From positions 1 to 24,986 of the forward strand of contig PMKB01000039.1 of NCBI GenBank assembly GCA_003157595.1: a DNA stretch of 24,986 nt, in the 5' to 3' direction. The translations under genes and the position numbers were made by a program. This DNA comes from Solirubrobacterales bacterium. Its GTDB lineage: Bacteria; Actinomycetota; Thermoleophilia; Solirubrobacterales; Solirubrobacteraceae. Position 1 is the stretch's first letter. Each line of letters starts with the position of its first letter. Positions 8,408 through 22,969 of this stretch are shown piece by piece. The notes below the pieces were generated by a model. It was not told the origin of the DNA and did no database searches. It saw nothing but the letters and a program-made list of their open reading frames with translations.

Positions 8408-9249
8408 CTTCCCGTCCCCACCCGTATGTGATCGCCGACGTCTTCACCGACACGCCGCTCCAGGGCAACGGCCTCGCCGTCTTCACCGACGGGACCGCCT
8501 TCGACGAGCGCATGATGGCGCGGCTCGCGCGCGAGCTGAACCTGTCGGAGACCGTTTTCGTCCTGCCCGCGCGCCAGGGCGGCGACGCCTGGATCCGGAT
8601 CTTCACGCCCGGGATCGAGCTGCCGTTCGCCGGCCACCCCGTGCTCGGGTCGGCGTTCGTGCTCGCCGGTGAGCGCGAGACGGTCCGCCTCGAGACCGCC
8701 CGCGGCATCGTGGCTGTCGCATTGCGGCGCGACCCTCACGGCGCCGCCGTGTTCGGCCGCATGCAGCAGCCGATCCCCACGCTCGAGCCATTCGAACCGC
8801 AGGCGCAGCTGCTGCACGCGCTCGGCGTCACCCGCTCCGAGCTGCCGATCGAGGCCTACGTCAACGGCCCGCACAACGTCTACGTGATGCTCGCGGACGA
8901 GGCCGCGGTGGCTGCACTCGCACCCGACCACCAGGCGCTCGCCGCGCTCGGCCCCTTCAACGTCAGCTGCTTCGCCGGCGCCGGCCGCCAGTTCAAGACG
9001 CGGATGTTCGCGCCCGCGATCGGCATCAACGAGGATCCGGCGAGCGGCTCGGCCGCGGGCCCGCTCGCGCTGCACCTCGCCCGCCATGGTCTCGTCGCGT
9101 TCGGCGAGGAGATCGAGATCGCCCAGGGAGCCGAGATCGGGCGCCCGTCGAAGCTGCACGCGCGCGTGAGCGGCTCGCGCGCGCGGATCGAGCGGATCGA
9201 GGTCGGCGGCGCCGCGGTGATCGTCGCGCGCGGCGAGTTCAGCCTGTAG
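8404..9249 (+). CDS. PhzF-family isomerase/epimerase-like protein
   Basis: Member of the PhzF / diaminopimelate-epimerase-fold family, 281 aa. Family marks: DVFTDTPLQGNGLAVF near the N-terminus, NLSETVFV carrying the conserved Glu (E49) used as acid/base in PhzF, PFAGHPVLGSAF at 74-85, NVSCFAGAG and the second-domain signature EDPASGSAAGPLALHL. No phenazine genes are present, so the substrate is unknown; most such genes act outside phenazine synthesis. GGAG sits 7 nt before the ATG. Placement after a TetR gene suggests that regulator controls it. Convergent with the YhaM-like gene. Confidence 0.88.
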   Translation: MTSRPHPYVIADVFTDTPLQGNGLAVFTDGTAFDERMMARLARELNLSETVFVLPARQGGDAWIRIFTPGIELPFAGHPVLGSAFVLAGERETVRLETARGIVAVALRRDPHGAAVFGRMQQPIPTLEPFEPQAQLLHALGVTRSELPIEAYVNGPHNVYVMLADEAAVAALAPDHQALAALGPFNVSCFAGAGRQFKTRMFAPAIGINEDPASGSAAGPLALHLARHGLVAFGEEIEIAQGAEIGRPSKLHARVSGSRARIERIEVGGAAVIVARGEFSL

Positions 9250-9267
9250 CGCAAGCCGTCTGGACCG

Positions 9268-10179: not shown

Positions 10180-10187
10180 CGCCCCAT

Positions 10188-10197
10188 CATGTACGGT
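10188..10197. promoter_or_regulatory. Divergent -10 boxes, yhaM-like / PAC2
   Basis: Plus strand: TACGGT at 10192-10197, then 7 nt to the PAC2 ATG. Minus strand: TACATG at 10193-10188, then 8 nt to the YhaM-like ATG; this box lacks the final T, so it is weaker. The two share a TA step. No Shine-Dalgarno is seen for PAC2. Confidence 0.4.
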
Positions 10198-10204
10198 GAA
10201 GCGG

Positions 10205-11080
10205 ATGCAGCCGTTGATTTGGGAGCATCGTCCCGACAACCTGAGGGCTCCGGCCCTGGTCTGCGCCTTCACCGGCTGGAACGACGCCGGCGACGCCGCC
10301 TCCTCGGCGCTGTCGTTTCTCGGCAGCTCGCTCGGCGCCACGCGCTTTGCCCAGATCGACCCGGAGGAGTTCTACGACTTCCAGACGGTGCGCCCGAAGG
10401 TCTCGCTGATCGACGGTGAGACGCGCGAGATCGTCTGGCCGTCGGTCGAGGTCTTCGCCGCCCGCGTGCCCCGCGCGCCGCGCGATTTGGTGCTGCTCGG
10501 CGGGCCTGAGCCGTCGATGCGCTGGCGCAGCTTCACGACGCTGATCACCGACCTCGTGGAGGCGCTCGGCGTGCAGCTGGTCGTCTCGCTCGGCGCGCTG
10601 CTGGCCGACGTCCCGCACAGCCTGCCGGTCCAGATCAGCGGCTCGGCGTCCGACCAGGCCCTGACCGAGCGCCTCGGCCTGCACGGGACCGGCTACGAGG
10701 GGCCGACCGGGATCGTCGGCGTGCTGCATGCCAGCTGCGCTGCGCGCGGCATCCCGTCGGCAAGCCTGTGGGCGAGCGTCCCCCACTACGTCGCCGCCGC
10801 TCCGAACCCGAAGGCCGCGCTGGCGCTGGTGCGCAAGCTCGAGGGGCTGGTCGGCGTCGCGGTGGACGGCAGCGAGCTGGAGGTGGCGGCCGCGGACTAC
10901 GAGCGCCAGGTGGGACTCGCGGTCCAGAGCGACCCCGACGTGCAGGCCTTCGTCGAACGCCTCGAGCAGCTCGCCCAGGACGAGCGCGCGGACGAGCCCG
11001 AGGAGATCCCCTCGGGCGACCGTCTCGCGCGCGAGTTTCAGCGCTTCCTGCGCCAGCGCGGCAGCGACGACGATTCGTAG
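10205..11080 (+). CDS. PAC2-family protein (proteasome-assembly-chaperone-like)
   Basis: Protein of 291 aa with the PAC2 signature: PALVCAFTGWNDAGDAASSAL near the N-terminus, FYDFQTVRPKV, LVLLGGPEPSMRWRSF, VSLGALLADVPH and GPTGIVGVLHASC, then SLWASVPHYVAAAPNPKAALALV. Actinobacterial PAC2 proteins belong to the family of eukaryotic proteasome assembly chaperones; their bacterial role is unsettled. The C-terminal 60 residues are acidic and helical. No proteasome gene lies in the window. The start is leaderless-type, 7 nt after TACGGT. Confidence 0.88.
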   Translation: MQPLIWEHRPDNLRAPALVCAFTGWNDAGDAASSALSFLGSSLGATRFAQIDPEEFYDFQTVRPKVSLIDGETREIVWPSVEVFAARVPRAPRDLVLLGGPEPSMRWRSFTTLITDLVEALGVQLVVSLGALLADVPHSLPVQISGSASDQALTERLGLHGTGYEGPTGIVGVLHASCAARGIPSASLWASVPHYVAAAPNPKAALALVRKLEGLVGVAVDGSELEVAAADYERQVGLAVQSDPDVQAFVERLEQLAQDERADEPEEIPSGDRLAREFQRFLRQRGSDDDS

Positions 11081-11082
11081 TT

Positions 11083-11154
11083 CCGATCGGCGCATGCGCC
11101 GATCGGCGGGACGGCGCATGCGCCGTCCCGCGGTCTGGTGCATGCACCAGACCG
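11083..11154. repeat. Array of three abutting perfect palindromes, 24-bp centre spacing
   Basis: Perfect palindromes at 11083-11106 (24 bp), 11106-11131 (26 bp) and 11131-11154 (24 bp). Centres lie at 11094.5, 11118.5 and 11142.5, exactly 24 bp apart. All share the core GGYGCATGCRCC but have different outer arms, each still fully complementary (CCGATC/GATCGG, CGGGAC/GTCCCG, CGGTCT/AGACCG). They fill the gap between convergent PAC2 and the helicase gene, beginning 3 nt after the PAC2 stop. They could act as stacked terminators, protein sites or cruciforms. There is no U-tract, so a standard intrinsic terminator is not shown. Confidence 0.9.
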
Positions 11155-11194
11155 AACAGCTCCACCCCTTGAGCTTCGGCACCGAGCGGGCGCG

Positions 11195-14100
11195 TCACTT
11201 CTCGGCGGCCGGGCAGGCGATCCGGTACTCGCACATCGAGCAGACCGCGTAGGAGGGGGTGGGCTCGAACGACTGCGCCATGATGGCGCCCGCGACCTCC
11301 TCGACCGTCTCCTCGATCCAGCGTGGCGCGCCATCCTCGACGCCCAGGCGCACGCGCTCGTCGTCGAGCACGTAGTAGTAGGTGCGCTCGGTCGCCTCGA
11401 TCTGCCAGGCCTCGCGCGCCGCGACCGCGTAGAGCGCCAGCTGAACATCGTCTCGCAACTGCTCGGCGCGCCGGGGCACGCCGGTCTTGTAGTCGATCAG
11501 CTCGTAGCCGCCGCCGGCGAGCGCGTCGATGCGGTCGACGCGGCCGCGGATGTGGTTGCGCCCGAGCGGGAAGTTGAACGAGCGCTCGAACCAGCGCGGC
11601 TCGCCGCCCGGCTCGCCCAGGCGCTCGTGGTAGCGGGTCAGCGCGACGCGCGCCTTCTCGCGCAGCTGGCGCTCCTCGTCGGAGTCGGCGAAGCCGCCGC
11701 GGCGCCAGGCCACATCCAGTAGGCGCATCATCTCCTCGCCCGAGCCGCCGGCGGTGCCGTGGAAGCGCTCGAGCACCTGGTGCACGAGGATGCCGAAGCG
11801 CTGGTTGAGCGTCGGCTCGCGCGGGATCCGCAGCACGCGCGCGAACTTGTAGCGCAGCGGGCAGGTCAGGTAGGACTCGACGTCGGAGGCCGACAGCACC
11901 AGGCCGTCGCCGCGGCGCGGCAGGAAGGCCTCGAGCGTGGGCTCCTCGCGGGCTGCCATCGCCGCCGCCCGCGCGCGAGTGTCGGTCGCGGTGCCGAGCA
12001 GCAGCTCGTCCAGCGGCGAGCTGGAGAGGACCTCGCGCTGCAGCGGCGTGAGCGCCGCCCCCAGGCGCGCGTTGATGTCCGTCAGCGAGTCCGAGACCGG
12101 CTCGTTGTCGCGCCGCTGCAGAAGCGACGCCAGCTTGACCAGCTCGACGAACCGAACCACGCCGTGGGCGACGTCGAGCTCGGTGTCCAGACGCAGCTCG
12201 CCCAGGCGCGTGCCAAGGCGCGCAACCGTCGCGAGCAGCTCGTCGCGGCGCTCGCTGAAGATCGAGTGCAGCGCCTCGGCGGGGCCGAACAGCTCCTCGT
12301 CGCGCGACTCCCACTCGCCGCCGAGCGCGGCGCGCGCCTGTTCGGCAAGCGGCGAGGGCGAGCGGTCGGCGCGGCGCTGGGAGCTTGCCGCGTAGGCCAG
12401 CACGAGCGTGGAGCGGGCGCGCGTCATCGCCACGTAGAGCAGCCGCCGCGCGCGCTCCTCTGCACTCGCCGTCTGGAGGTCCTCCGGGGCGAGCGCGTCG
12501 GGGATTGCGTCGCCGGGGGCGAAGCGGCCGCCCAGCGCGCCGCCGCCGGCCCGCGTCGCGTGCAGCCCGAGCACGAAGACGTGGTCGAAGCTCTCGCCGG
12601 CCGCCGACTCGATCGACATCACCGCGACCGCCCGCGCGCGCCCGGCCGGTGCGGCCTCCTGCTCGCCCAGCCCGGCGTCGGCCAGCACGCCGAGGTAGCG
12701 GGCGAACTCGCGCGCGCTCGCGCCGGGCACGCGGCGCTCGTAGGCGCCGGCGAGGTCGCCGAGCCTGGCCAGGTTGAGCAGCCGCTCGACAACGTCGGCC
12801 TGGGCTGTGAAGAGCTGCTGGCGGCGCAGGCCGAGGCGGTCGATCAGACGGTGCACGAAGAGGTCGGCGCGCGTGTTCTCGAGCGCTCCGGCGGCGGCGC
12901 GCTGGACCGCAAGGAAGTGGCCGATCCGCTCGCGCGCCTCGGGCGCCAGCTGGGGTGATTCGGTCGCCGCGACCGCCGCTGCGACCATGTCGATGCCGCG
13001 GCGGCGCGCGATCTGCACGCAGCGCGCTATGTCGGCGGCCGGCAGCTCGATCGGCGGGCGCGCCAGGGCCCTGACGGCCGCGGGAGCGTCGCGCGGGTCG
13101 ATCAACAGGCGCAGCCAGGCCAACACGTCACGAACCTCGGCGCGGTCGAAGAAGGCGTCGGCGCCGACGATCCGACAGGCCACGGCACGCTCGGCGAGCG
13201 CCACCGCGACGGCCTGCCCCTCCTGCGCGACCGAGCGCACCAGCACCGCACAGCGCTCCGGCGCCACGCCTTCGCGGGTGGTCAGCCGATCGAGCTCTGC
13301 GGCGACGCGCTGCGCTTGCGCCCGCTCGTTCGCCGCCCGCCAGAAGTGCACTTCGCCGCCGACGCCGCCGCGCAGGTCCTTGCCGATTCGCGGCTCGACG
13401 CCCGCCACGACCGCGTGCGCCGCGTCGAGCACGCGCTGGGGACAGCGGAAGCTCTGCGACAGCGACACGACCGACGCGCCGTGGCGGCGCTCCCCGAAGC
13501 GCAGCAGGTTGGCGGCGCCGGCGCTGCGCCCGCGCCCGACCGCCTGGTCGTCGTCACCGGCCGCGCTGAGCGCGCTGCCGCCCAGCTCGAGGGCGCCGAC
13601 CAGCTCGCGCTCCCCGTAGGAGAGCTCCTGCCAGTCGTCGACCAGCAGCGCCGGGTAGCGGCCGGCGATCCGCTCGCGCAGCTCGCGCTCGCCCCGCAGC
13701 AGGGCGACGCAGGCGGCCAGCACGCCGCCGTCGTCAAACACGCCGAGCTGCTCGAGCATCCGGTCGTGCGCCGCCATCACGGCGGCGAACTCGCGTCCGC
13801 GCGCTCCCGCATCCCCCTCGATCGTGGCCGCCCAGGCGCCGTAGCGCTCGGCATCGATCAGCTCCGCCTTGTACTGGTCGATCCGGCGCACGAAGCCGGC
13901 GAACAGCGCCAGCGGGCGTCCGCGAAAGTCGTGGTGGTGCAGCTCGAGCTCGCCGGCGCGATCGAGCAGCATGGCGAGGCGGTCGCCGGGGCCGAGCACC
14001 TCGACGAACGGGTCGATGCCGGCGTGGCGCGCCTGCGAGGAGAGCAGCGAGACGCAGAACTCCGCCACCGAGTAGACGGCCAGCTCCTCGTGCGCTCGCG

Positions 14101-14368
14101 CCAGCGCGAGCTCGATCCGCTCGCGCAGGCCCTGGCGGGCGCTCAGCACGAGCGCGGTGTGGGGTTCCAGGCCGCCGTCGGCGAGCCAGACCAGACGGCG
14201 CACGAGGACCTCGGTCTTGCCGGTGCCGGGGCCGCCGATCACCAGCAGCGGCGAGCCGCGATGGGTGACCGCGTCGCGCTGGGCGTCGGTCAGGCCGTCG
14301 AGCGCGGAGCCGCGATACGGGGCCGCGTCGCGCTGGGCGTCGGTCCGGCCGTCGAGCGCACTCGCCAT
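11195..14368 (-). CDS. UvrD/Rep-type helicase fused to Fe-S RecB-like (PD-(D/E)XK) nuclease
   Basis: A 1057-aa protein predicted to unwind and cut DNA ends, like single subunits of AdnAB or AddB. Visible: duplicated Q motif (TDAQRDA at 9-15 and 27-33), Walker A GGPGTGKT at 45-52, motif II as VDDWQE at 243-248, GDDDQAVGRGR at 271-281, SQSFRCPQRVLDAA, motif VI RRLLYVAMTRAR. The nuclease domain follows: SDVESYLTCPLRYKF, GILVHQVLERFH, GRVDRID, ELIDYKTG, QLALYAV, then CSMCEYRIAC. The last three Cys (1043, 1046, 1052) plus the Cys of TCPLRYKF form a likely 4Fe-4S site. Motif V is odd (SIESAAGESFD for H-x-AKGLE). Start ATG at 14368 lies 6 nt after TATCCT; in-frame upstream codons overlap the divergent gene. 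No partner subunit is adjacent. Confidence 0.9.
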   Translation of the reverse strand: MASALDGRTDAQRDAAPYRGSALDGLTDAQRDAVTHRGSPLLVIGGPGTGKTEVLVRRLVWLADGGLEPHTALVLSARQGLRERIELALARAHEELAVYSVAEFCVSLLSSQARHAGIDPFVEVLGPGDRLAMLLDRAGELELHHHDFRGRPLALFAGFVRRIDQYKAELIDAERYGAWAATIEGDAGARGREFAAVMAAHDRMLEQLGVFDDGGVLAACVALLRGERELRERIAGRYPALLVDDWQELSYGERELVGALELGGSALSAAGDDDQAVGRGRSAGAANLLRFGERRHGASVVSLSQSFRCPQRVLDAAHAVVAGVEPRIGKDLRGGVGGEVHFWRAANERAQAQRVAAELDRLTTREGVAPERCAVLVRSVAQEGQAVAVALAERAVACRIVGADAFFDRAEVRDVLAWLRLLIDPRDAPAAVRALARPPIELPAADIARCVQIARRRGIDMVAAAVAATESPQLAPEARERIGHFLAVQRAAAGALENTRADLFVHRLIDRLGLRRQQLFTAQADVVERLLNLARLGDLAGAYERRVPGASAREFARYLGVLADAGLGEQEAAPAGRARAVAVMSIESAAGESFDHVFVLGLHATRAGGGALGGRFAPGDAIPDALAPEDLQTASAEERARRLLYVAMTRARSTLVLAYAASSQRRADRSPSPLAEQARAALGGEWESRDEELFGPAEALHSIFSERRDELLATVARLGTRLGELRLDTELDVAHGVVRFVELVKLASLLQRRDNEPVSDSLTDINARLGAALTPLQREVLSSSPLDELLLGTATDTRARAAAMAAREEPTLEAFLPRRGDGLVLSASDVESYLTCPLRYKFARVLRIPREPTLNQRFGILVHQVLERFHGTAGGSGEEMMRLLDVAWRRGGFADSDEERQLREKARVALTRYHERLGEPGGEPRWFERSFNFPLGRNHIRGRVDRIDALAGGGYELIDYKTGVPRRAEQLRDDVQLALYAVAAREAWQIEATERTYYYVLDDERVRLGVEDGAPRWIEETVEEVAGAIMAQSFEPTPSYAVCSMCEYRIACPAAEK
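14252..14359 (-). repeat. 54-bp tandem duplication in helicase N-terminus (18-aa repeat)
   Basis: Two in-frame 54-bp copies (14306-14359, then 14252-14305), about 89% identical. They encode 18-residue units sharing ALDG-TDAQRDA and RGS, so the helicase carries two Q-motif-like segments before Walker A. The inner copy (LTDAQRDAV) is nearest the family consensus. Confidence 0.9.
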
Positions 14369-14373
14369 GCACC

Positions 14374-14380
14374 TAGGATA
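14374..14380. promoter_or_regulatory. Overlapping divergent -10 boxes (bidirectional leaderless promoter)
   Basis: Plus strand: TAGGAT at 14374-14379, then 8 nt, then the phosphatase ATG at 14388. Minus strand: TATCCT at 14380-14375, then 6 nt, then the helicase ATG at 14368. The start codons are 19 bp apart and the boxes share five base pairs, the mirror image of the 1849-1855 arrangement. Confidence 0.55.
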
Positions 14381-14387
14381 TGGCGGC

Positions 14388-15233
14388 ATGATGGCCACCG
14401 CGCAGGAGCCTGACTGGCTCGCGGTGTGCGAGCGGATCGCGGTTGGGTTGCGCGCGATGCTGGCGGCGCACCCGGGCACCTCCGAGCGCGCCGTCGTCGT
14501 CGGGCGCGGCGAGGGGGGCGACCGCACGCTGGTGATCGACCAGGCCGCCGAGGAGCTGATCTTCGCCGAGCTGGCCGCTGTCCACGCCGCCGGCACCGAC
14601 TTCACCGCGATCTCCGAGGAGCGCGGCGAGGTGGACTTCGGCGGCGGCCCGCTGCGTGTCGTGATCGACCCGATCGACGGCTCGATGAACGCCAAGCGAG
14701 GGCTCTCGCCGCACGCCGTGTCGATCGCCGTCGCCGACGGTGAGACGATGGCCGACGTCTGCTTCGGCTACGTCTGCGACCTGAGTGGCGACGAGGTCTG
14801 GACGGCGTGGCGCGGGGGCGGCGCGTTTCTCGGCGGCGTGGCGCTGGCGGTCGAGGGCGGCGAGCGGCGCACTCGCGCGGGACGCCTCGAGCTGGTCGCG
14901 ATCGAGGCGGCCCACCCCGACCGGATCGCCGCCGCCGTGGAGGCGCTTGAGCCGATCGCCCACCGCGTGCGCGTGTTCGGCTCAATGGCCTTCTCGCTGT
15001 GCCAGGTCGCGGCCGGGCGCGTGGACGGGATGGCGACGCTTGGGCGCTGCCGCTCCGTCGACGTCGCGGCGGCTCAGCTGATCGTGCGCGAGAGCGGCGG
15101 ACTGGTGGCGTTCACGGCCTGCGCGGAGCCGCTCGGAGCGCCGCTCGATCTCGTCTCGCACTCGCCGGTCGTGGCGGCGCGCAGCGCCGCCGGGCTCGCC
15201 GAGCTTGCAACGCTGCCATCATCAGTGTCGTGA
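14388..15233 (+). CDS. Inositol-monophosphatase-family enzyme
   Basis: Mg-dependent, Li-sensitive-type phosphatase fold, 281 aa. Motifs: ISEERGEVDF for the GEE-type metal site, VIDPIDGSMN matching the DPIDGTxN signature, and a C-terminal SVDVAAAQLIVRESGG in place of the usual WDxAAG. The substrate may be an inositol phosphate, fructose-1,6-bisphosphate, histidinol phosphate or an adenosine phosphate; the sequence does not decide. Two adjacent in-frame ATGs (14388, 14391) are possible. The first is 8 nt after TAGGAT, fitting a leaderless start. The stop overlaps the metalloprotease GTG by four bases (GTGA), so the two are probably cotranslated. Confidence 0.85.
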   Translation: MMATAQEPDWLAVCERIAVGLRAMLAAHPGTSERAVVVGRGEGGDRTLVIDQAAEELIFAELAAVHAAGTDFTAISEERGEVDFGGGPLRVVIDPIDGSMNAKRGLSPHAVSIAVADGETMADVCFGYVCDLSGDEVWTAWRGGGAFLGGVALAVEGGERRTRAGRLELVAIEAAHPDRIAAAVEALEPIAHRVRVFGSMAFSLCQVAAGRVDGMATLGRCRSVDVAAAQLIVRESGGLVAFTACAEPLGAPLDLVSHSPVVAARSAAGLAELATLPSSVS

Positions 15234-16273
15234 TCGACTGGAATCTCGTCCGGCGCATCGCCGAGACGATCGGCGGCCAGGGCGGCAGCGCGGCCTCGCC
15301 CAGCGGCGACCTGGCGGCGATCGCGTCGGACTCCCGCCAGCGCGTGCTGGCCTACACCCGGCTTGAGCCGATGTCCGAGCTGCCGGTTCCGGAGATGGTC
15401 TCGCGCCAGCAGTGGATCGAGGCGAACATGCGGTCGATGCGGCCGGTGCTCGACCGCGTCGGCTCCCGCGTCGGCGGCGGCATGGGCGTGCTCGGGCGCC
15501 CGACGCGAGCCCTGACGCGCGCCCTGTTCTCCGCCCAGGTCGGCGGCCTGACGGGCTTTCTCGCCCAGCGCGTGCTGGGCCAGTACGACATGCCCCTGCT
15601 CGATTCGACCGGCGCGCCGCGCCTGCTGCTGGTCGGCCCGAACCTCGGCTCCGCCGCCGCACGGCTGGAGGTCGACGGCGAGCAGCTGCTGCACTGGGTC
15701 ACGCTGCACGAGATGACCCACGCGGTCCAGTTCGGCTCGGTGCCGTGGCTGCGGCTGCACCTGGCGTCGCTGGTGCGCGAGGTGGTGGACACGCTCGAGG
15801 TGCGGATCGATCCCGTTTCGGGGCTGCGGCTGCCGAGCACCGACGATCTGCGCGGATTGATCGAGTCGCTGCGCCGCGGCGAGCTGGTGACGCTCGTGAT
15901 CGGGCGCGAGCGGCGCGTCCTGGTCGATCGCATCCAGGCCACGATGGCGGTGATCGAAGGCCACGCCGAGCACGTGATGGATGCCGTCGGGGCCGAGGTG
16001 ATCCCGTCGCAGGCACAGTTGCGCGCGGCGCTCGAACGTCGCCGTGTGGACCGCTCGGGGCCGATGCGCCTGCTTGAGCGGGTGCTCGGGTTCGAGCTGA
16101 AGCTGCGTCAGTATCGCGACGGCAAGCGGTTCTGTGACGCCGTCGTGGAGCGCGCCGGCATCGAGGGGCTCAATCGCGTCTGGAGCGCCCCCCACGCGCT
16201 GCCGTCGCTGGCCGAACTGGTCGATCCAGACGCCTGGATCGCCCGCACGGCTGTCCCGTTTGTCACAAAGTAA
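15230..16273 (+). CDS. Zinc-dependent metalloprotease, F420-biosynthesis-associated family (DUF2342)
   Basis: A 347-aa protein with HEMTH at 160-164 inside LHWVTLHEMTHAVQFG, a zincin-type HExxH motif. FIAQRVLGQYDxPLL-like (here FLAQRVLGQYDMPLL), VIEGHAEHVMDAVG and MRLLERVLGFELKLRQY are shared with the actinobacterial family named for its co-occurrence with coenzyme F420 genes. The role in F420 metabolism is a genomic association, not a demonstrated activity, and no F420 gene is in the window. The GTG start overlaps the upstream stop. VIEGHAEH may supply a further zinc-ligand Glu, by analogy with other zincins. Confidence 0.85.
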   Translation: MIDWNLVRRIAETIGGQGGSAASPSGDLAAIASDSRQRVLAYTRLEPMSELPVPEMVSRQQWIEANMRSMRPVLDRVGSRVGGGMGVLGRPTRALTRALFSAQVGGLTGFLAQRVLGQYDMPLLDSTGAPRLLLVGPNLGSAAARLEVDGEQLLHWVTLHEMTHAVQFGSVPWLRLHLASLVREVVDTLEVRIDPVSGLRLPSTDDLRGLIESLRRGELVTLVIGRERRVLVDRIQATMAVIEGHAEHVMDAVGAEVIPSQAQLRAALERRRVDRSGPMRLLERVLGFELKLRQYRDGKRFCDAVVERAGIEGLNRVWSAPHALPSLAELVDPDAWIARTAVPFVTK

Positions 16274-16340
16274 CGTCGGCCGGAAGCCCTAAGACACGGC
16301 GTTTCCGCGGTTTCACCGGCGCGAATGTTACAATCTTGCA

Positions 16341-16375
16341 AGCGGCCTGGACAAGCAGACGTTGGCCGCTATACT
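16341..16375 (+). promoter_or_regulatory. SigA-like promoter with 7-bp inverted repeat around the -35
   Basis: -35 TGGACA (16348-16353), 16-bp spacer, -10 TATACT (16370-16375), the best match to the vegetative consensus I found in this window. AGCGGCC (16341-16347) and GGCCGCT (16364-16370) form an inverted repeat with centres 23 bp apart, framing the -35 box like an operator. Another -10-like box (TACAAT) lies at 16329-16334 without a matching -35. Confidence 0.6.
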
Positions 16376-16378
16376 TTG

Positions 16379-16408
16379 TTGAGTTGGCATTGAGTTGATG
16401 TTGAGTTG
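16379..16408 (+). repeat. Three TTGAGTTG direct repeats at 11-bp period
   Basis: Exact TTGAGTTG copies at 16379-16386, 16390-16397 and 16401-16408, covering the expected transcription start. An 11-bp period is typical of OmpR/PhoB-type response-regulator sites. Alternatively the repeats act in RNA: the third copy can pair with CAACTC at 16423-16428 (inner helix GCGT/ACGC, loop AAC), and the other two copies could compete for it. Confidence 0.8.
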
Positions 16409-16803
16409 GGCGTAACACGCTGCAACTCCTGGAGCGAAGAGGCTTGAGATGAGGTCCGAAGGCACGATCAGAGGCAGCGTTGCCCGCACCCGGCGGATCG
16501 CCGAGTGCGCGGTCGCCTCGACGCGCGAGCAGCGCGTCGAGCGAGTTCGTCAAGCGACGCAGCATCTGACGTCGAGCCGTCCGAGCGTCGCCTCGAGACT
16601 CCGGCCCCAGGTTTCGATGGTTCGGTCCTCAAGGATTCGTCCAAAGGTGCCGAAACCGTCTTAAAGCTTCCTCCAAGTTTCCCCCGCCCGGTTGGAGAGA
16701 CCGGATCCGGGTAGGTCTGCCGGCCTCATAACCCGTCGGCAGGTAGGACCCTCTCCTCCCTCGACTTCCGGGGCGTCTCGCAAGAGGCGTCCCGGAGGTC
16801 TTT
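16382..16803 (+). ncRNA. Candidate structured non-coding RNA, family not recognised
   Basis: The 708-bp stretch 16274-16981 has no convincing protein gene. From the promoter at 16348-16375 a transcript of about 420 nt would contain many helices: GAGTTG/CAACTC (16403-16428); GGCA/TGCC near 16474-16485; a perfect 10-bp stem CTCGACGCGC/GCGCGTCGAG with 5-nt loop (16517-16541); GGTTTCG/CGAAACC (16610-16657); an 8-bp stem with 10-nt loop (16717-16742) enclosed by GGAGAG/CTCTCC (16694-16756); and a terminal 17-bp stem. I looked for RNase P (GAGGAAAGTCC, ACAGAA), tmRNA (tRNA-like ends, tag), SRP and tRNA signatures and found none. A 71-codon ORF at 16449-16664 has a possible ribosome site but drifts out of normal codon use, so a leader or dual-function RNA remains possible. 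Confidence 0.45.
16763..16803 (+). terminator. 17-bp stem with GCAA tetraloop, terminator-like
   Basis: 16763-16779 pairs with 16784-16800 over 17 positions with three G-U wobbles and no mismatches, capped by the GNRA tetraloop GCAA. It is followed by TTT and then AAAA, a short U-tract. It ends the candidate RNA. The wobbles make it stronger in the plus-strand RNA. Confidence 0.6.
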
Positions 16804-16969
16804 AAAAGGGCTCTGAGGCCGAAAGCCTGCGGGCTTCGCCCTCACCCCCGCCGGCATTGGTGGCGTTAGGCGCCGCGCGGCCGCTGCCAGCCTCGTCGTG
16901 GGGAAGCAGCAGAGCGAGCACACCAGCCGAGCGTCGCCTCGATCTGGCCGGGCCGCCACCGGCGAGCGC

Positions 16970-16975
16970 TATGCT
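16970..16975 (+). promoter_or_regulatory. -10 box (TATGCT), leaderless type
   Basis: TATGCT followed by 6 nt and the GTG start of the small membrane protein. No Shine-Dalgarno is present. Confidence 0.5.
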
Positions 16976-16981
16976 CGAAGC

Positions 16982-17197
16982 GTGGCCGATCTGCAGAAGC
17001 GCGGCAACTACACCCCGCGCCGGGTTCGCGAGCAACGCGCCTACCGGCTCGCCGTCGGCGGCGGCGTCGCCGGCGTGGTCGGCGTCGTCGGGCTCGTGCT
17101 CGCCGCCGTCGGCGTGATCGGCGCGACAGTGCCGATTCTGGTGCTCATCGTGGCGGCGATCTGCGTGTTTCTGTTCCGCCGCGTCGTCGCGGGCTGA
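16982..17197 (+). CDS. Small two-helix membrane protein, unknown
   Basis: A 71-aa protein from GTG at 16982. A basic N-terminus (LQKRGNYTPRRVREQRAYR) is followed by two hydrophobic helices (GGGVAGVVGVVGLVLAAVGVIGA and VPILVLIVAAICVFLF) joined by a short turn, and a short basic end. Codon use is normal for the window. The GTG sits 6 nt after TATGCT, and upstream codons in frame run through the non-coding stretch. I recognise no named family. Confidence 0.65.
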   Translation: MADLQKRGNYTPRRVREQRAYRLAVGGGVAGVVGVVGLVLAAVGVIGATVPILVLIVAAICVFLFRRVVAG

Positions 17198-17257
17198 CAG
17201 ACCCCCGACGTCGGCCTGGCGCTACCATCGCGGCGGTCAACCGGAGGAGGCTAGGCG

Positions 17258-17557
17258 ATGCACGCGCGAGTGGCGACGTTCGAAGGCGGAGACCCCGACC
17301 AGGTGCGGGCGATGGTGGAGGAGATCGGCAGGCAGTCGGCGGCCGGGGGGCCGCCCGAGGGTGTGCCGGCGGTCGGCCTGCTGCTGCTTCACCGGCCCGA
17401 GGACGGCAAGGTGCTGGCCATCACCCTGTTCGACACCGAGGAAGACCTGCGCCAGGGCGACGCGACGCTGAGCGCGATGGACCCGCCGAACCCGGGCGGG
17501 ATGGGCCGGCGCGCCTCGGTCGAGATCTTCGAGGTCCCCACCAAGCTCGACCTCTGA
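17258..17557 (+). CDS. Small dimeric alpha/beta-barrel-like protein
   Basis: A 99-aa protein: ARVATFEGGDPDQVRAMVEEI at the start, VPAVGLLLLHRPEDGKVLAITLFDTEEDL in the middle and an EIFEVPTK end strand. This is the strand-helix-strand-strand layout of ABM/Dabb-type ferredoxin-like folds. No catalytic motif is evident; many such proteins are uncharacterised. GGAGGAGG at 17243-17250 lies 7 nt before the ATG, a strong ribosome site. It is followed after 40 bp by another small gene with the same kind of site, so the two are probably one operon. Confidence 0.7.
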   Translation: MHARVATFEGGDPDQVRAMVEEIGRQSAAGGPPEGVPAVGLLLLHRPEDGKVLAITLFDTEEDLRQGDATLSAMDPPNPGGMGRRASVEIFEVPTKLDL

Positions 17558-17597
17558 TCGAGCGCGTGTTCCCGTCAGCCGAACACAGGAGGCGAGC

Positions 17598-18014
17598 ATG
17601 ACCACCGCCACGGGCACCGGCACGCGTGAAGATCCGTGGGTCCTGCGCACACCGCCCGGCACGTCGGAGTACCAGATGTATCGCGACGAGGGAGCCGACC
17701 CGCCGGCTCTGGTCTGCGTGGTCGGGAAGACGACGCTCGCCTACCGGCTGCGCGCGATCGAGGATCTTCAAGCCATGCTCCTGGCGCACGGAGACTGGAT
17801 CTCGCTCGGCAGCGCCGACGAGCAGAAGCCGGCGCCGGAGGGCACGGTGGAAGCATGGGCCCGCTCTGAGAGCAATCCGCTCGGCGGGTTCTACGGCCTG
17901 AAGAAGGGGCTGCGCGGGCGCTTTGGCATGTACATGCCGCCGCTGCTCGAGGCGCTCGGCCTCGCCGAGCTCGAGCACAACCCGCGCAACAACCGCATGC
18001 GCGCGATCCCCTAA
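17598..18014 (+). CDS. Conserved hypothetical protein (small actinobacterial family)
   Basis: A 138-aa soluble protein. The stretches REDPWVLRTPPGTSEYQMY, CVVGKTTLAYRLRAIEDL, HGDWISLGSADEQKP, VEAWARSESNPLGGFYGLKKG and ALGLAELEHNPRNNRMRA look strongly conserved and I recall similar hypothetical proteins in actinobacteria, but no function. No membrane helix or known catalytic motif. AGGAGG lies 6 nt before the ATG. The last base of its stop codon is the first base of the 164-nt inverted repeat. Confidence 0.75.
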   Translation: MTTATGTGTREDPWVLRTPPGTSEYQMYRDEGADPPALVCVVGKTTLAYRLRAIEDLQAMLLAHGDWISLGSADEQKPAPEGTVEAWARSESNPLGGFYGLKKGLRGRFGMYMPPLLEALGLAELEHNPRNNRMRAIP

Positions 18015-18177
18015 GAACGTCTTTCACAATGAGGGTGGGCCCGGGGCGGTCCGGGGGCAAGTTGGGCGGCGCACGGTGCCGAAGCAGGTACCGGCGGTAC
18101 CTGCAAGGTGCCGGGTGACGATCCAACGCCGCAATCCGGGCCGAATCCGGGTGGGCCCTCATTGTGAAAGCCGTTCT
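18014..18177. repeat. 164-nt imperfect palindrome (MITE-like or long RNA hairpin)
   Basis: Arms 18014-18035 and 18156-18177 pair over 22 bp with a single mismatch (18020/18171): AGAACG, then CTTTCACAATGAGGG. Going inward on the same axis: 18040-18044 with 18147-18151; 18047-18055 with 18135-18143 (two G-U); 18074-18080 with 18107-18113 (two G-U); and a central perfect 9-bp stem GCAGGTACC/GGTACCTGC with loop GGC (18084-18104). The whole unit is one nested hairpin. It fills half of the 337-bp gap 18015-18351. No transposase is present and no clear target duplication is visible. Confidence 0.85.
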
Positions 18178-18299
18178 AAAGCGCTCCGGCCACGGCGCTC
18201 GGGCGGACCCCCGGCGCGCGGCCGGAACCGCGGCGCCCGGGCGCTGGCACCCTTCGCGCAGGACGACGCGCTGAGACCATCCGGCGCCTCGACGGCTGC

Positions 18300-18329
18300 C
18301 GCGGCGGCGTTGCGCAACGCTCCGCCGCG
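18300..18329 (+). promoter_or_regulatory. GC-rich hairpin just upstream of mrp
   Basis: CGCGGCGG (18300-18307) pairs with CCGCCGCG (18322-18329), and the inner CGTTGCGCAACG is a 12-bp perfect palindrome with a 2-nt bulge (CT) on the right. It ends 22 nt before the mrp ATG and could affect mrp translation or bind a protein. The rest of 18178-18299 shows nothing I can assign. Confidence 0.4.
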
Positions 18330-18351
18330 CGCGTTTGCGAGAATAGGTGCG

Positions 18352-19467
18352 ATGCCCACCGTCGAGGAGATCCGCAAGGCGCTCGAGGTCGTGATCGACC
18401 CCGAGCTGCACCGCTCGATCGTCGAGCTCGACATGATCCGGCGGATCGAGCTGGGCGCCGACGGCGAGGTGTCGGTGACGGTCTCGCTGACCACCGCCGG
18501 GTGCCCGATTCGCGGGCACTTCCAGAGCAGCGTGCGCGACGCCGTGATGGGCCTCGATGGGGTCCGCTCGGTCAACGTCGACTTCGATGTGCTCAGCGAC
18601 GAGCAGAAGTCGGCGCTGCAGCGGACGCTCGGACGCAACGACCTGCCCGCGGGCGCGCTCGCGCTCGTCGAGAACGTCGTCTGCGTCGGATCGGGCAAAG
18701 GCGGCGTCGGCAAGTCGACGCTGACCGCCAACCTCGCCGCCGCGCTGGCCGGCGAGGGACGCCGCGTGGGCGTGCTCGACGCCGACGTCTGGGGCTACTC
18801 GATCCCGCGAATGCTCGGCCTCGCCGCCGAGCGCCCGGCGGTCTCGGCCGAGCGCAAGATCATCCCGCTGGATGCGAACGGCATCGCCGTGATGTCGATC
18901 GGCTTCTTCGTGCCGGAGGACTCCGCCGTCGTCTGGCGCGGGCCGATGCTGCACAAGGCGCTCAAGCAGTTCCTCGAGGATGTCGAGTGGGGCGCGCTGG
19001 ACTTCCTGCTGATCGACCTTCCGCCGGGCACCGGCGATGTCTCGATGACCCTCGCACAGCTGCTGCCGCAGGCCTCCTTCGTGATCGTCACGACACCCCA
19101 GCCGGCCGCCCAGCGCGTCGCGCGTCGCGCCGCGGAGATGGCCCACAAGGTCTCGCTCGAGATCTCCGGCGTGATCGAGAACATGGCCGGCTTCGTCACA
19201 CCGGACGGGGAGCGCTACGCGATCTTCGGCGAGGGTGGCGGACAGGCGCTCGCCGACGAGCTGGACGTGCCGCTGCTCGGTCGCGTGCCGCTGACGATGC
19301 CGCTGCGCGCGGCGTCCGACGCGGGCGTGCCGCTGGTCGTCGAGAACCCGGACGACCCTGCCTCGCAGGCGATCCGTCACGCGGCCCGCGGACTGATCGC
19401 GCTCGCCCCGCCACCCAGGCCGAGCGCTCCGGCGCCGGTCGGGATGGCGCTGCCAATGGCGGGGTAG
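18352..19467 (+). CDS. mrp: Mrp/NBP35-family ATP-binding protein (Fe-S cluster carrier)
   Basis: Cytosolic P-loop ATPase that carries and delivers Fe-S clusters, 371 aa. An N-terminal MIP18/DUF59 domain (residues 1-85, VIDPELHRSIVELDMI, TTAGCPIRG) is followed by the deviant Walker A GSGKGGVGKS at 113-122, LDADVWGYSIPRMLG, IDLPPGTGDVSMTL and GVIENMAGFVTPDG. The last segment lacks the CxxC pair found in many Mrp/Nbp35 proteins, which I believe is usual in actinobacteria. The ATG at 18352 is chosen because the DUF59 domain begins there and AGG sits just upstream. Its last residues are Pro-rich. Confidence 0.92.
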   Translation: MPTVEEIRKALEVVIDPELHRSIVELDMIRRIELGADGEVSVTVSLTTAGCPIRGHFQSSVRDAVMGLDGVRSVNVDFDVLSDEQKSALQRTLGRNDLPAGALALVENVVCVGSGKGGVGKSTLTANLAAALAGEGRRVGVLDADVWGYSIPRMLGLAAERPAVSAERKIIPLDANGIAVMSIGFFVPEDSAVVWRGPMLHKALKQFLEDVEWGALDFLLIDLPPGTGDVSMTLAQLLPQASFVIVTTPQPAAQRVARRAAEMAHKVSLEISGVIENMAGFVTPDGERYAIFGEGGGQALADELDVPLLGRVPLTMPLRAASDAGVPLVVENPDDPASQAIRHAARGLIALAPPPRPSAPAPVGMALPMAG

Positions 19468-19504
19468 CCTGCGTGATCCGAGCGCGCGGCCGGGAACACC
19501 GAGC

Positions 19505-20956
19505 GTGACGCGCCGCCGGCGGGGGCGTCGGAGCGTGACCGCCCGCGTCGCATGCGGCACGCTCGGCGGCGTGCTGGCCGGCCTGACGGTTCCGGCCGCC
19601 GCGGCGGCGCACGGCATCCAGCTCGTCACCGACCTGCCGATCCCGGAATGGCTGTTCGCCTGGGCCACGGCGATCGTGCTGGTCGTGTCGTTCGTCGCCC
19701 TGGCGACGCTCTGGCCCCTGCCGCGGCTCGATCAGCGCCACGATCGCGCCTGGCTGCGCTACCCGCGCTGGCTTGACCCGGCGTGCGGCGCGATCGGCGT
19801 CGCACTGTTCGTGCTGATCGTCTACGCCGGCATCGCCGGCGCGCAGCTCGTCACCGCGAACATCGCCCCGACCTTGATCTACGTGGTCTTCTGGGTCGGC
19901 CTGGCGCTCGCCTCGGTCCTGTTCGGCGACGCCTTCCGGCCGTTCAACCCGTGGCGCGCGGTCGCCCGCGCGAGTGCCTGGGGCGCGCAGCGGTTGCGGC
20001 GCGGGGCGCCCGCAGCGGAGCCGCTGCCCTACCCGGCCTGGCTCGGTCGCTGGCCGGCCGCGTTCGGCATCCTCTGCTTCGCCTGGCTCGAGCTGGTCGA
20101 CAACCCGGCGCAGCGCGTCGAGCCGCGCCTGCTGGCGTTCCTCGCGCTCGGCTACGCGGCGGTCCAGCTGGTCGCGATGAGCCTCTACGGGATCGAGACG
20201 TGGACGGCGCGCGGCGACGCCTTCGCGGTCTATTTCGGCCTGTTCGGGCTGATGGCGCCGCTGCGGTGGGCGGACGGCCGGGTCTGGCGGCGCGCACCGT
20301 TCGTCGGCGCTGTCGCGCTCGAGCTGATGCCCGGGACGATCGCCCTGATCGCGGTGATGATCGGCTCGACGAGCTTTGACGGCCTCTCGAACGGAACGGT
20401 GTGGATCAGCCTCTTCCCCCACCTCTACAGCCTGTTCACGAGCCTCGGCGTGTCGAGCGCGAATGCAGCGACGGAGTACTCCTACACGCTCGGCCTGATC
20501 GCGATGGTGGCGATCGTCGGCGGCCTCTACCGTCTCGGCACACTCGGCATGCGCTCGATCGGCGCCGGCTACCAGGCGAGCGACCTCGCGCGGCGCTTCG
20601 CCCACACGCTGCTGCCGATCTCGATCGCCTACGTCATCGCGCACTACTTTTCGCTGCTGGCCTTCTCCGGCCAGTCGATGATCTACCTGGTGTCGGACCC
20701 GCTCGGGACCGGCGCGAACATCTTCGGCACCGCGAACTTCCAGCCGAATCTGGCGATCGTCACCGGGAACGTCGTCTGGTACGTGCAGGTCGGAGCGCTG
20801 ATCGCCGGCCACGTCGGCGGCCTCACGCTCGCCCACGACCGGGCGCTGACGCTCTACCACCGCGCCCGCGACGCGACCCGCTCGCAGTACTGGATGCTGA
20901 CCGTCATGGTCGCATTCACGAGCCTCGGCCTGTGGATTCTCTCATCGACCCAGTAG
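19505..20956 (+). CDS. Multi-pass membrane protein, function unknown
   Basis: A 483-aa protein with an Arg-rich N-terminus and signal-like segment ending AAAAAHG, then about ten to twelve transmembrane helices. Conserved-looking polar spots include ELVDNPAQRVEPR, FGDAFRPFNPWRA, GSTSFDGLSNG and IAHYFSLLAFSGQS; the two His of IAHYF and AGHVGG lie in or near helices. Similar actinobacterial proteins are sometimes labelled fenitrothion-hydrolase-like, but I see no hydrolase motif and do not adopt that. GTG at 19505 is the most upstream usable start; another GTG at 19535 would still keep the signal region. It starts 38 bp after mrp. Confidence 0.75.
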   Translation: MTRRRRGRRSVTARVACGTLGGVLAGLTVPAAAAAHGIQLVTDLPIPEWLFAWATAIVLVVSFVALATLWPLPRLDQRHDRAWLRYPRWLDPACGAIGVALFVLIVYAGIAGAQLVTANIAPTLIYVVFWVGLALASVLFGDAFRPFNPWRAVARASAWGAQRLRRGAPAAEPLPYPAWLGRWPAAFGILCFAWLELVDNPAQRVEPRLLAFLALGYAAVQLVAMSLYGIETWTARGDAFAVYFGLFGLMAPLRWADGRVWRRAPFVGAVALELMPGTIALIAVMIGSTSFDGLSNGTVWISLFPHLYSLFTSLGVSSANAATEYSYTLGLIAMVAIVGGLYRLGTLGMRSIGAGYQASDLARRFAHTLLPISIAYVIAHYFSLLAFSGQSMIYLVSDPLGTGANIFGTANFQPNLAIVTGNVVWYVQVGALIAGHVGGLTLAHDRALTLYHRARDATRSQYWMLTVMVAFTSLGLWILSSTQ

Positions 20957-20991
20957 AGACGAAGAAATTCCCCCGTCCTCAGGCGAGGGGA

Positions 20992-20997
20992 TAGGCT
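20992..20997 (+). promoter_or_regulatory. -10 box (TAGGCT) for mscL, leaderless type
   Basis: TAGGCT followed by 6 nt and the mscL ATG, without a Shine-Dalgarno. The same hexamer and spacing recur before the epimerase-like gene at 21992. Confidence 0.5.
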
Positions 20998-21003
20998 GCG
21001 GCC

Positions 21004-21450
21004 ATGCGTGGACTGCTGAAGGATTTCAAGACCTTCCTGTTCCAGGGAAACGTGATCGACTTGGCGGTGGCGATCGTGCTCGGAATCGCCTTCGGCACGG
21101 TCGTGAAGGCGCTCGTGACCGACCTGCTGACTCCGATCATCGCGCTGATCTTCGGCAAGCCGGACTTCGGCGCGCTGTCGTTCACGCTCAACAGCAGCAG
21201 GTTCCTCTACGGCGACTTCATCAACGCGCTGATCGCCTTCGTCTCCGTCGCCGCGGCGATCTTCTTCTTCGTGGTCAAGCCTGTGAACGCGATGGCGGCG
21301 CGCCGCGCCGCCGGTCAGCCGGACCCCGGGTCCGACACGCGGGCGTGCCCCGAGTGCCTCTCGGAGATCCCCAAGGCGGCCCGGCGCTGCGCCTTCTGCA
21401 CCGCGGTTCAGACCCCGGTCGGCGAGCAGGCGGCGCCGGCCTCGCTCTGA
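21004..21450 (+). CDS. mscL: Large-conductance mechanosensitive channel MscL with C-terminal zinc ribbon
   Basis: Pentameric membrane channel that opens on hypo-osmotic shock. MRGLLKDFKTFLFQGNVIDLAVA is the classic N-terminal amphipathic helix and TM1 (about 16-40). The periplasmic loop is 51-72 and TM2 about 73-92. The usual cytoplasmic charged bundle is replaced by a tail with C115, C118, C129 and C132 (CPECLSEIPKAARRCAFC), a zinc-ribbon-like CxxC-x10-CxxC. Total 148 aa. The tail is in frame with no sign of a recent joint. Zinc binding is inferred from spacing only. Confidence 0.92.
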   Translation: MRGLLKDFKTFLFQGNVIDLAVAIVLGIAFGTVVKALVTDLLTPIIALIFGKPDFGALSFTLNSSRFLYGDFINALIAFVSVAAAIFFFVVKPVNAMAARRAAGQPDPGSDTRACPECLSEIPKAARRCAFCTAVQTPVGEQAAPASL

Positions 21451-21458
21451 GCGGCGGG

Positions 21459-21509
21459 GCGCCGTCGCGGGAGCCGCCGCGGGTCGCGCCGTCGCGGGAG
21501 CCGCCGCGG
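21459..21509. repeat. 27-bp tandem repeat, two copies, 3' of mscL
   Basis: GCGCCGTCGCGGGAGCCGCC plus CGCGG occurs at 21459-21482 and again at 21486-21509. It lies in the 209-bp gap between convergent mscL and ferredoxin. The rest of the gap holds a run of eight G, a short CA run and a weak hairpin (CAGGCG/CGCCTG) that might terminate mscL. Confidence 0.85.
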
Positions 21510-21659
21510 CTCGCCCGAGGGGGGGGCCGGCCCGCACACACACGCGTTGGCCGCAGGCGGGCCCGCACACGGTCAGGCGGCCATCCGCCGGGAACGCCTG
21601 CGCGCAGCGGCCGTCGATCTTGTTCTCACGGCGACGCGAGGATCGCGCCGGCGCCGATC

Positions 21660-21923
21660 TCAGCCGTTCTTGTAGTACGCGGCGTTGATCTCGATGTACT
21701 TGGTCCACTCGTCCGGCAGCTGGTCCTCCGCGAAGCAGGCGTCCACGGGGCAGGCTTCGACACATGCGTCGCAGTCGATGCACTCGTCCGGATCTATGTA
21801 GAGCATCTCGACCTCGGCGTAGCCGGTCTCCTCGGGCGTCGGGTGGATGCAGTCGACCGGGCAGACCTCGACACACGAGTTGTCCTTAGTCCCGATGCAC
21901 GGCTCGGCGATCACATAGGCCAT
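21660..21923 (-). CDS. fdxA: Seven-iron-type ferredoxin (FdxA-like)
   Basis: Small electron carrier of 87 aa with two Fe-S cluster motifs. The first half has C9, C17, C21 and C25 (C-x7-C-x3-C-x3-C, the spacing of 3Fe/7Fe ferredoxins); the second has C48-x2-C51-x2-C54-x3-C58-P for a 4Fe-4S cluster. An additional Cys lies at 63. MAYVIAEPC and the CVEVCPVDCIHP block closely resemble actinobacterial FdxA. The start has AGGAA about 13 nt upstream. Likely partners are oxidoreductases or cytochromes encoded elsewhere. Confidence 0.93.
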   Translation of the reverse strand: MAYVIAEPCIGTKDNSCVEVCPVDCIHPTPEETGYAEVEMLYIDPDECIDCDACVEACPVDACFAEDQLPDEWTKYIEINAAYYKNG

Positions 21924-21960
21924 CTGTTTCTGATTCCTGTCTTCGAGGGCGGGGGAGCGA

Positions 21961-21966
21961 ATATTA
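21961..21966 (-). promoter_or_regulatory. -10 box (TAATAT) for the ferredoxin
   Basis: Near-consensus TAATAT on the minus strand, placing a start about 30 nt before the ferredoxin ATG, with AGGAA in the leader. No clear -35. Confidence 0.45.
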
Positions 21967-21991
21967 CGGGCCTGATCGCCGCGCGGCTGGG

Positions 21992-21997
21992 TAGGCT
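21992..21997 (+). promoter_or_regulatory. -10 box (TAGGCT), leaderless type
   Basis: TAGGCT followed by 6 nt and the ATG of the epimerase-like gene; no Shine-Dalgarno. Confidence 0.5.
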
Positions 21998-22003
21998 GGG
22001 TGC

Positions 22004-22882
22004 ATGCTGCTGCTCACCGGCGCCAGCGGCTTGGTCGGCAGCGCCCTGCGTAGGCGCCTGATCGCAGCCGGCGTCCCGCTTCGCTGTCTGGTGCGCGACC
22101 CGCGCCGGCTAGGCGAGGACCGCGTCCGCGTCCAGATCGCGCTCGGGGACCTCGCCGACCCGCCTTCGTTCCGCAACGCCCTGCGCGGCGTCGACACCGT
22201 GATCCACCTGGCCGCGACGATCCGCGACCAGCCGCAGGGCTCGATCGAGGAGCTCTCGGGGATCGCCACGTGGCGTCTCGTCGACGCCGCGAGCCGCGCC
22301 GGCGCCGAGCGCTTCGTGTTCTTCAGCGCGCTCGGGGCGGGCACCCAGAGCCGCGCCCGACTGCTGCGGGCGAAGGCGCTGGCCGAGGAGGCGGTGAGCG
22401 CCAGCGAGATCCCCTCGATCATCCTTGCGCCGTCGATCATCTACGCGCCGGGCGAGGCCTACCTGACGCTGCTGGGGCGGCTCGCGCTGATCCCCGCCGT
22501 GATGCCGTTCTCCGGTCGCGGCCGCGCGCAGTTCGCGCCGATCTGGGTCTCGGACGTCGCCGACTGCGTGATGAGCGCGCTCGCGCAGCCGGCGGGCAAC
22601 GCCCGCTACGAGCTCGCGGGCCCCGACGTCCTGACGCACGAGCAGATCGTCCGCCTCGCCCTGCGCTCGCTCGGCAAGCGGCGCGCCCTGCTGCACGTTC
22701 CGATCCCGGTCGTTTCCGCCACGCTGGCGCTGACCGAGCGACTGATGGGGCAGCGCGCGTTCGCGACCTGGGACGAGGCCGAGCTGATGGAGGTCTCGAT
22801 GCTTTCCGCCGGCGGCACCCAGGACGCGCAGCGGCTCGGCGTGCGCCCGCGCGCGATGGCCTCGGTGCTCGGCGTCAGCTGA
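22004..22882 (+). CDS. NAD(P)-binding epimerase/NDUFA9-like atypical SDR
   Basis: Rossmann-fold protein of 292 aa. LLLTGASGLVGSALRRRL at the N-terminus gives the dinucleotide-binding TGxxGxxG (5-12). DTVIHLAATIRDQ and FVFFSALGAG follow, with SIILAPSIIYAPGE in place of a typical YxxxK active site, and FAPIWVSDVADCVMSAL and YELAGPDVLTHEQIV near the C-terminus. This pattern resembles complex-I NDUFA9-like and atypical SDR proteins that bind NAD(P) and may lack catalysis. The gene begins with a leaderless-type start. Its 3' end is inside a 57-bp tandem duplication. Confidence 0.85.
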   Translation: MLLLTGASGLVGSALRRRLIAAGVPLRCLVRDPRRLGEDRVRVQIALGDLADPPSFRNALRGVDTVIHLAATIRDQPQGSIEELSGIATWRLVDAASRAGAERFVFFSALGAGTQSRARLLRAKALAEEAVSASEIPSIILAPSIIYAPGEAYLTLLGRLALIPAVMPFSGRGRAQFAPIWVSDVADCVMSALAQPAGNARYELAGPDVLTHEQIVRLALRSLGKRRALLHVPIPVVSATLALTERLMGQRAFATWDEAELMEVSMLSAGGTQDAQRLGVRPRAMASVLGVS

Positions 22883-22969
22883 CCAGCGGCCGGCGCGGAA
22901 TCGGCGGCGCCGATGGCCTCGGTGCTCGGCGTCAGCTGACCAGCGGCCGGCGCGGAATCGGCGGCGCCG
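22854..22969. repeat. Perfect 57-bp tandem duplication spanning two convergent gene ends
   Basis: Two exact copies, 22855-22911 and 22912-22968, with 2 bp of further identity. Each copy contains TCAGCTGA, a palindrome carrying a TGA stop on both strands. The epimerase-like gene stops in the first copy (22880-22882) and the amidase in the second (22934-22932). Confidence 0.97.

Follow-up and report, generated by a model that had tools for sequence, protein, structure and literature searches.

The question raised by this locus is whether the DNA between a metalloprotease gene and a gene for a small membrane protein encodes a structured RNA, how far such an RNA extends, and what it might do. The original prediction, made from the letters alone, had placed there an RNA of about 420 nt with its own promoter. 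The window (the whole stretch of DNA analysed, 24,986 nt of contig PMKB01000039.1 from a Solirubrobacterales bacterium) does hold a small structured RNA, which is real and consists of a conserved core and a terminator, together about 130 nt. The features referred to below are as follows, the carrier gene being the coiled-coil protein gene that lies directly upstream of most copies of the RNA.

16341 to 16347 and 16364 to 16370, no strand assigned: arms of a 7-bp inverted repeat, AGCGGCC/GGCCGCT, around the -35 box (from the sequence).
16348 to 16375, forward strand: sigma-70-type promoter-like site TGGACA-16-TATACT (10 of 12 matched), with the start of the composite transcript expected near 16382.
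16379 to 16408, forward strand: three copies of TTGAGTTG, 11 nt apart (from the sequence).
16449 to 16664, forward strand: 71-aa ORF with weak similarity to the coiled-coil carrier gene.
16677 to 16762, forward strand: conserved RNA core, in the 101-row alignment; matched by model R3 in its own genome with 82.5 bits and E 4.4e-16, the window itself sitting in the alignment of R3.
16683 to 16686 with 16708 to 16711, forward strand: P1 (helix 1; 92.5% of cells paired), also present in the fold of the window.
16688 to 16704, forward strand: P2 hairpin, CCGGT and ACCGG enclosing TGGAGAG, with GGAGAG (16694 to 16699) in the loop.
16717 to 16742, forward strand: P3 hairpin (helix 4; 98.9% of cells paired), CTGCCGGC and GTCGGCAG enclosing CTCATAACCC.
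16751 to 16762, forward strand: near-invariant strand CUCUCCUCCCUC, of which 16751 to 16756 can pair with the P2 loop.
16763 to 16807, forward strand: terminator from the fold, a 17-bp stem with a GCAA loop (16763 to 16800) followed by the tail TTTAAAA; recurs in relatives.

Along the window, the peptidase gene is followed by the 71-aa ORF, the RNA, three short ORFs and the gene for the iron-sulphur P-loop protein Mrp (18352 to 19467), in whose product FeS_assembly_P and ParA domains were found. The short ORFs between the RNA and Mrp (16898 to 18014) comprise a membrane-protein-like ORF, one without a Pfam match and one for a DUF6855 protein.

The extent of the RNA was read from its relatives. 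BLAST of positions 16100 to 16900 against 61 genomes, the window's own included, returned two separate matched stretches, the first being the 3' end of the Zincin_2 peptidase gene and the second 16679 to 16805, which is 85% identical in the closest relative; all else that matched was short and weak. When 20 additional loci (two of them the same place) were aligned, a common anatomy emerged, and this recurs across 109 distinct cores, obtained from 123 fetched instances and representing part of all copies found. It opens at the 5' side with CUUMCCC and P1. P2 follows, with purines in its loop; a linker rich in purines then precedes P3, and a second linker, resembling GYAGYACC, leads to CUCUCCUCCCUC and the terminator. 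An optional extra hairpin was seen between P2 and the 3' strand of P1, and another between P3 and the downstream strand (L109, L054, L052; L044, L169, L170).

Of the predicted 420 nt, the last 130 or so are thus what relatives keep, and a conserved RNA of the full length was dropped. The 5' part of about 300 nt is not conserved as RNA and contains a probable remnant ORF. Positions 16382 to 16676 fold well (z -3.22), and relatives match it only in short weak stretches. Inside this non-conserved part lies a perfect 10-bp inverted repeat, at 16517 to 16541. The claim that the region contains no convincing protein gene was partly right, as the 71-aa ORF gives a weak alignment to the C-terminal end of the gene that a relative has there (E 2e-4 for that single comparison), its own C-terminus SSRIRPKVPKPS being set against TSRIRPHLPKHS. 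The ORF is unmatched by a profile of the carrier gene and by Pfam and NCBIfam; by its sequence it is probably a shrunken relative of the carrier gene.

The upstream elements were found as predicted. TGGACA-16-TATACT is the sole sigma-70-type match in 7000 to 24986 (0.4 expected), and the 7-bp inverted repeat framing its -35 box, the three direct repeats spaced by 11 bp and the 17-bp terminator-like stem with a GNRA tetraloop are all in place. That the RNA has its own promoter stands in part: the promoter-like site is present, but it stands ahead of the 71-aa ORF, and no -10-like box was found 9 to 34 nt upstream of the RNA itself in the window.

Folding energies gave a mixed account. Positions 16660 to 16815 fold with z -3.39; without the terminator, the window's own core reaches z 0.23, no better than shuffles, and the mean over the 109 copies is -1.90. 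The weight of the structural case rests on covariation counts and on a swap test. Covariation was counted in an alignment of 101 rows (A6), made up of 100 of the 109 copies and L080 3248-3320 (E 0.057), which is probably a false row; L160 to L162, L172, L193, L195 and L197 to L199 are outside it. As A6 was fitted to the structure, its counts lean toward pairing: of its 1704 cells, 93.8% are paired (74.0% in shuffles), and two-sided changes occur at all 17 tested pairs, in 313 cells against 98.5 in shuffled alignments, with none of 500 shuffles reaching that number. The signal collapses when the partner is slid by 1 to 3 columns. A lack of covariation in relatives had been named beforehand as part of what would refute the prediction; covariation was found. 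Two-sided changes were found at 5/5 pairs of P1 and 8/8 of P3; in P2, helix 3 is paired in 93.0% of cells and the weak outer pair (helix 2) in 61.1%. The swap test, performed outside A6, yielded z 12.1 for P2 and z 13.6 for P1; mispaired controls reached 5.6 and 3.1, so that relatedness explains part of the signal. A test for any hairpin at P2 with a score of at least 8 was weak (real 90.8%, shuffled 61.2%): P2 beats all 10 of its own shuffles in only 31 of the 109 copies, with still imperfect segmentation picks, and a hairpin of this type easily arises in shuffled G+C-rich sequence.

The terminator covaries as well. Its stem reaches 11 pairs or more in 102 of the 107 copies, compared with 5.6% of shuffles, and its arms are 97% paired in their own combination and 59% when swapped. 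The five copies below 11 pairs are L031, L160, L168, L181 and L193, of which L031, by eye, shows a stem with a longer loop. A terminator scan of the window did not list the stem at 16763 to 16800, the tail TTTAAAA being below the demand of 5 T in 8. In the copies beside a GntR-type regulator (L160 to L162), the terminators are doubtful: the stems in L160 and L161 are offset from the core by 13 and 7 nt, respectively, and have no T-tract, and L162 holds N bases.

Two segments stand out from the variable stems. Between the closing bases of P2, GGAG or GAGAG is found in 107 of 109 copies; downstream, CUCUCCUCCCUC is exact in 89/109 and CUCUCCUCC present in 104/109. In 100/109 copies the P2 loop could form at least 6 contiguous pairs with the downstream strand, and thereby a pseudoknot. 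Covariation in these pairs is scarce (91.9% paired against 91.4% in shuffles; 7 two-sided cells against 3.7) because the downstream strand is nearly invariant, and own partners pair over 6.70 nt compared with 6.55 for swapped ones. Three copies depart from this in a way that favours the pseudoknot: L031 has GGAGAA/UUCUCC, and L174 (GAGAGGUUG/CAACCUCUC) and L178 (GAGAGAGUG/UACUCUCUC) could form shifted or longer pairings; the base beside GGAGAG compared with that beside CUCUCC gave a mixed picture. We regard the pseudoknot as likely rather than proven, and infer its presence in the cell. The conserved strand also includes UCCCUC, which the pseudoknot does not need.

The RNA appears to be a feature of one order. 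A gapped DNA pattern run against a species-genome collection found 62 stretches, of which, with taxa taken from record titles, 54 were titled Solirubrobacterales, Solirubrobacteraceae, Solirubrobacter, Thermoleophilaceae, Thermoleophilia or Conexibacter, and 8 just Actinobacteria, Actinomycetes or Actinomycetota. Covariance model R1 matched all 62 and, overall, 83 of 85 sources, the unmatched ones being L048 and L049. With R3, the RNA was detected in 122 of the 232 genomes of the order Solirubrobacterales, in 63 of the 112 of good quality, and in 35 of 54 genera. A sample of the class gave 53 matched genomes out of 299 and a sample of the phylum, searched with the cruder R1, 4 out of 396; all were from the window's order and none from outside it. 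Searches over 40 genomes were run with strict filters, by which diverged copies are lost and absences overcounted. With filters off, 12 Mrp loci from genomes without a hit yielded two diverged copies, L211 (30.7 bits) and L207 (20.3 bits, E 0.006); among the other ten, L203 has too little upstream DNA and L200 no carrier gene. The RNA is present in the complete chromosomes of Conexibacter sp. S30A1 and DBS9H8, and all four genomes of the window's genus carry a second copy. In the window's own genome this is L031 (G000:C312:311-398), preceded by another gene that ends in a hairpin of its own by eye, with no -10-like box at 9 to 34 nt.

Neighbouring genes were counted upstream for the 101 copies with at least 600 nt of DNA on that side, and downstream for the 92 with at least 1200 nt. 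The carrier gene lies directly upstream of 90 of the 101 (median gap 6 nt, range 0 to 64). It encodes an Ala/Lys/Arg-rich coiled-coil protein, conserved and uncharacterised (AERAVLxPVGAAL ... FERRGxTARNR), and the members scanned had no Pfam or NCBIfam match at cut-off, for which reason an identity as phasin was dropped; as an impression only, it may be a granule or envelope coat protein. In 58 of the 92 loci the Mrp frame starts fewer than 400 nt downstream, in 12 it lies further away and in 22 it is absent from the DNA examined; it was not found beside stand-alone copies.

The RNA and the carrier gene are separable in both directions. By profile, the RNA stands without the gene at the same locus in L043, L072, L074, L085 and L110. 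Conversely, L205, L206 and L208 to L210 have the carrier gene and Mrp as direct neighbours and no RNA with filters off, L049 has the two genes about 0.6 kb apart and no RNA, and L048 likewise keeps the gene without a detectable RNA. In the five loci that have lost the gene, a TAnnnT -10-like box was found 12 to 17 nt upstream of the RNA in each, compared with 5 of 90 loci with the carrier gene at 9 to 22 nt (3 of these at 12 to 17 nt), a comparison framed after the five sequences had been seen and in which their -35 boxes are weak by eye. Stand-alone copies have a -10-like box in 3 of 6. In L160 to L162, the second copy adjoins a divergent regulator, with TGTATACTTACATACA in front of the RNA; the regulator is GntR plus FCD by Pfam in L160 and L161 and by resemblance in L162. 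The TGTATACTTACATACA palindrome overlaps the -10-like box ahead of these copies, in which the RNA starts at oriented coordinates 2425 (L160), 2501 (L161) and 2865 (L162).

What the RNA does was judged from these patterns. The 3' end of 16S rRNA holds CCUCC, as does the CUCUCCUCCCUC strand, and CCUCC-like strands fit many Shine-Dalgarno sequences. By analogy, variable stems joined to an invariant C/U-rich strand beside the terminator are the pattern of anti-Shine-Dalgarno small RNAs. Of the marks of such RNAs, the conserved strand is present and promoter-like boxes stand at the RNA in some loci only. We give an even chance to a small structured RNA that acts in trans through an anti-Shine-Dalgarno-like strand gated by the pseudoknot; transcription, pairing with mRNAs and the direction of regulation are what we infer. 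An RNA of about 130 nt including its terminator would be made either as the 3'-terminal portion of the carrier mRNA or from a promoter immediately before the RNA, and P1, P2 and P3 would form a compact body. The GGAGAG of the P2 loop would pair with the downstream CUCUCC and mask half of CUCUCCUCCCUC; once the pseudoknot opened, the strand would be fully free to pair with the Shine-Dalgarno regions of target mRNAs and block their translation. As Hfq was matched in none of the 61 genomes, this pairing would be Hfq-independent. The location of 90 of 101 copies directly behind one carrier gene counts against a trans role, since it fits a role in cis as well, and against transcription of its own speaks the missing -10-like box directly ahead of the RNA in the window and in three of the six stand-alone copies. 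The trans-acting reading is nevertheless favoured because some loci have no Mrp, no clear anti-terminator was found, and the RNA occurs in genomes that lack a CsrA match.

A more specific form of this reading is tentative, and we hold it as a minority view. The GGAGAG loop would mimic a Shine-Dalgarno sequence and hold the RNA's own anti-Shine-Dalgarno strand, like a latch, until a signal, a protein or a competing Shine-Dalgarno sequence opened it; the family would be an autonomous gene that sits behind the carrier mRNA in most genomes, has outlived it in some and has been copied beside other regulators such as GntR.

Unlikely, in our estimate, is a scaffold or sponge for an RNA-binding protein, for which CsrA would be the obvious candidate given the GGA in an apical loop. 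In 99 of the 109 copies the closing bases of P2 enclose GGA while the stem varies, and CsrA was matched in 56 of the 61 genomes, among them that of the window. The five unmatched genomes (G011, G026, G049, G057 and G059; drafts, 78 to 93% complete) nevertheless all carry the RNA, and CsrA as a necessary partner was dropped on that account. CsrA sponges have several GGA loops, whereas there is one conserved GGA loop per RNA here, and the reading leaves CUCUCCUCCCUC unexplained.

We rate as quite unlikely a cis attenuator or riboswitch ahead of Mrp, which would sense something and control read-through of the terminator. A pseudoknotted fold, a terminator and a gene follow one another in typical riboswitches, and the layout here is the same, with Mrp close behind the terminator in the 58 loci counted above and the two domains of the window's Mrp to go with it. 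The 3' arm of P3 also pairs with the 5' arm of the terminator better in own than in swapped combinations (z 4.2). Against this stand the loci in which Mrp is distant or absent, the stand-alone copies, and the anti-terminator comparison, which disclosed no clear conserved candidate: on a scale where true terminator arms reach z 28.3, the P3 hairpin gave z 2.1, P1/P2 z 0.2 and the tail z -2.6. With an inconstant downstream gene and no clear anti-terminator, the riboswitch was dropped as a general role. The least probable reading, in which the RNA would be a structured 3' UTR acting in cis to stabilise or regulate the mRNA of the carrier gene, draws on the carrier gene directly upstream at a median gap of 6 nt, and is contradicted by the RNA retained in five loci after loss of the gene, by the stand-alone copies and by the seven loci in which the gene is kept without detectable RNA.

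The trans-acting small RNA was finally set against known families. As predicted, the structured RNA lies outside Rfam: a search of Rfam 15 reached gathering score neither in the window nor in 14 other loci (one being the second copy of the same genome), and ARAGORN found no tRNA or tmRNA. A candidate published elsewhere and absent from Rfam is possible. A literature search on Solirubrobacterales and small RNA returned one paper, on soil communities, the broader small-RNA and structured-RNA-survey literature held nothing on this RNA among the matches listed, and a survey of 104 candidates does not mention Solirubrobacter or Conexibacter in its main text (PMC2864571). The covariation of this RNA family outside Rfam is strong. 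Which partner the conserved strand pairs with, whether the latch idea holds and what the carrier protein does are testable points, for instance in Conexibacter sp. S30A1 and DBS9H8, which can presumably be grown.

Among known systems, terminator-coupled riboswitches as a kind share the compact fold followed by a terminator and differ by a constant downstream gene and a clear anti-terminator. The best sub-threshold Rfam match in 16250 to 16990 was suhB/MmgR (RF00519, alpha-r8; 19.8 bits, E 0.16, gathering score 41), which likewise has a CUCCCU-GACUU strand ahead of a G+C-rich hairpin; the match comprises only the strand and the terminator hairpin (model positions 22 to 62 of 77), not P1 to P3. 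According to PMC8401924, suhB/MmgR is 77 nt long and Hfq-dependent. Similar in design are the alpha-r14 small RNAs of rhizobia (NfeR1), which have three hairpins and carry the anti-Shine-Dalgarno motif CCUCCUCCC in unpaired regions of each, while the RNA described here comes from another phylum, in which the 61 genomes had no Hfq match, and has one strand outside its hairpins and a possible pseudoknot. In both, variable stems are combined with a highly conserved anti-Shine-Dalgarno strand, described for the alpha-r14 RNAs as ultraconserved (PMC10746234).
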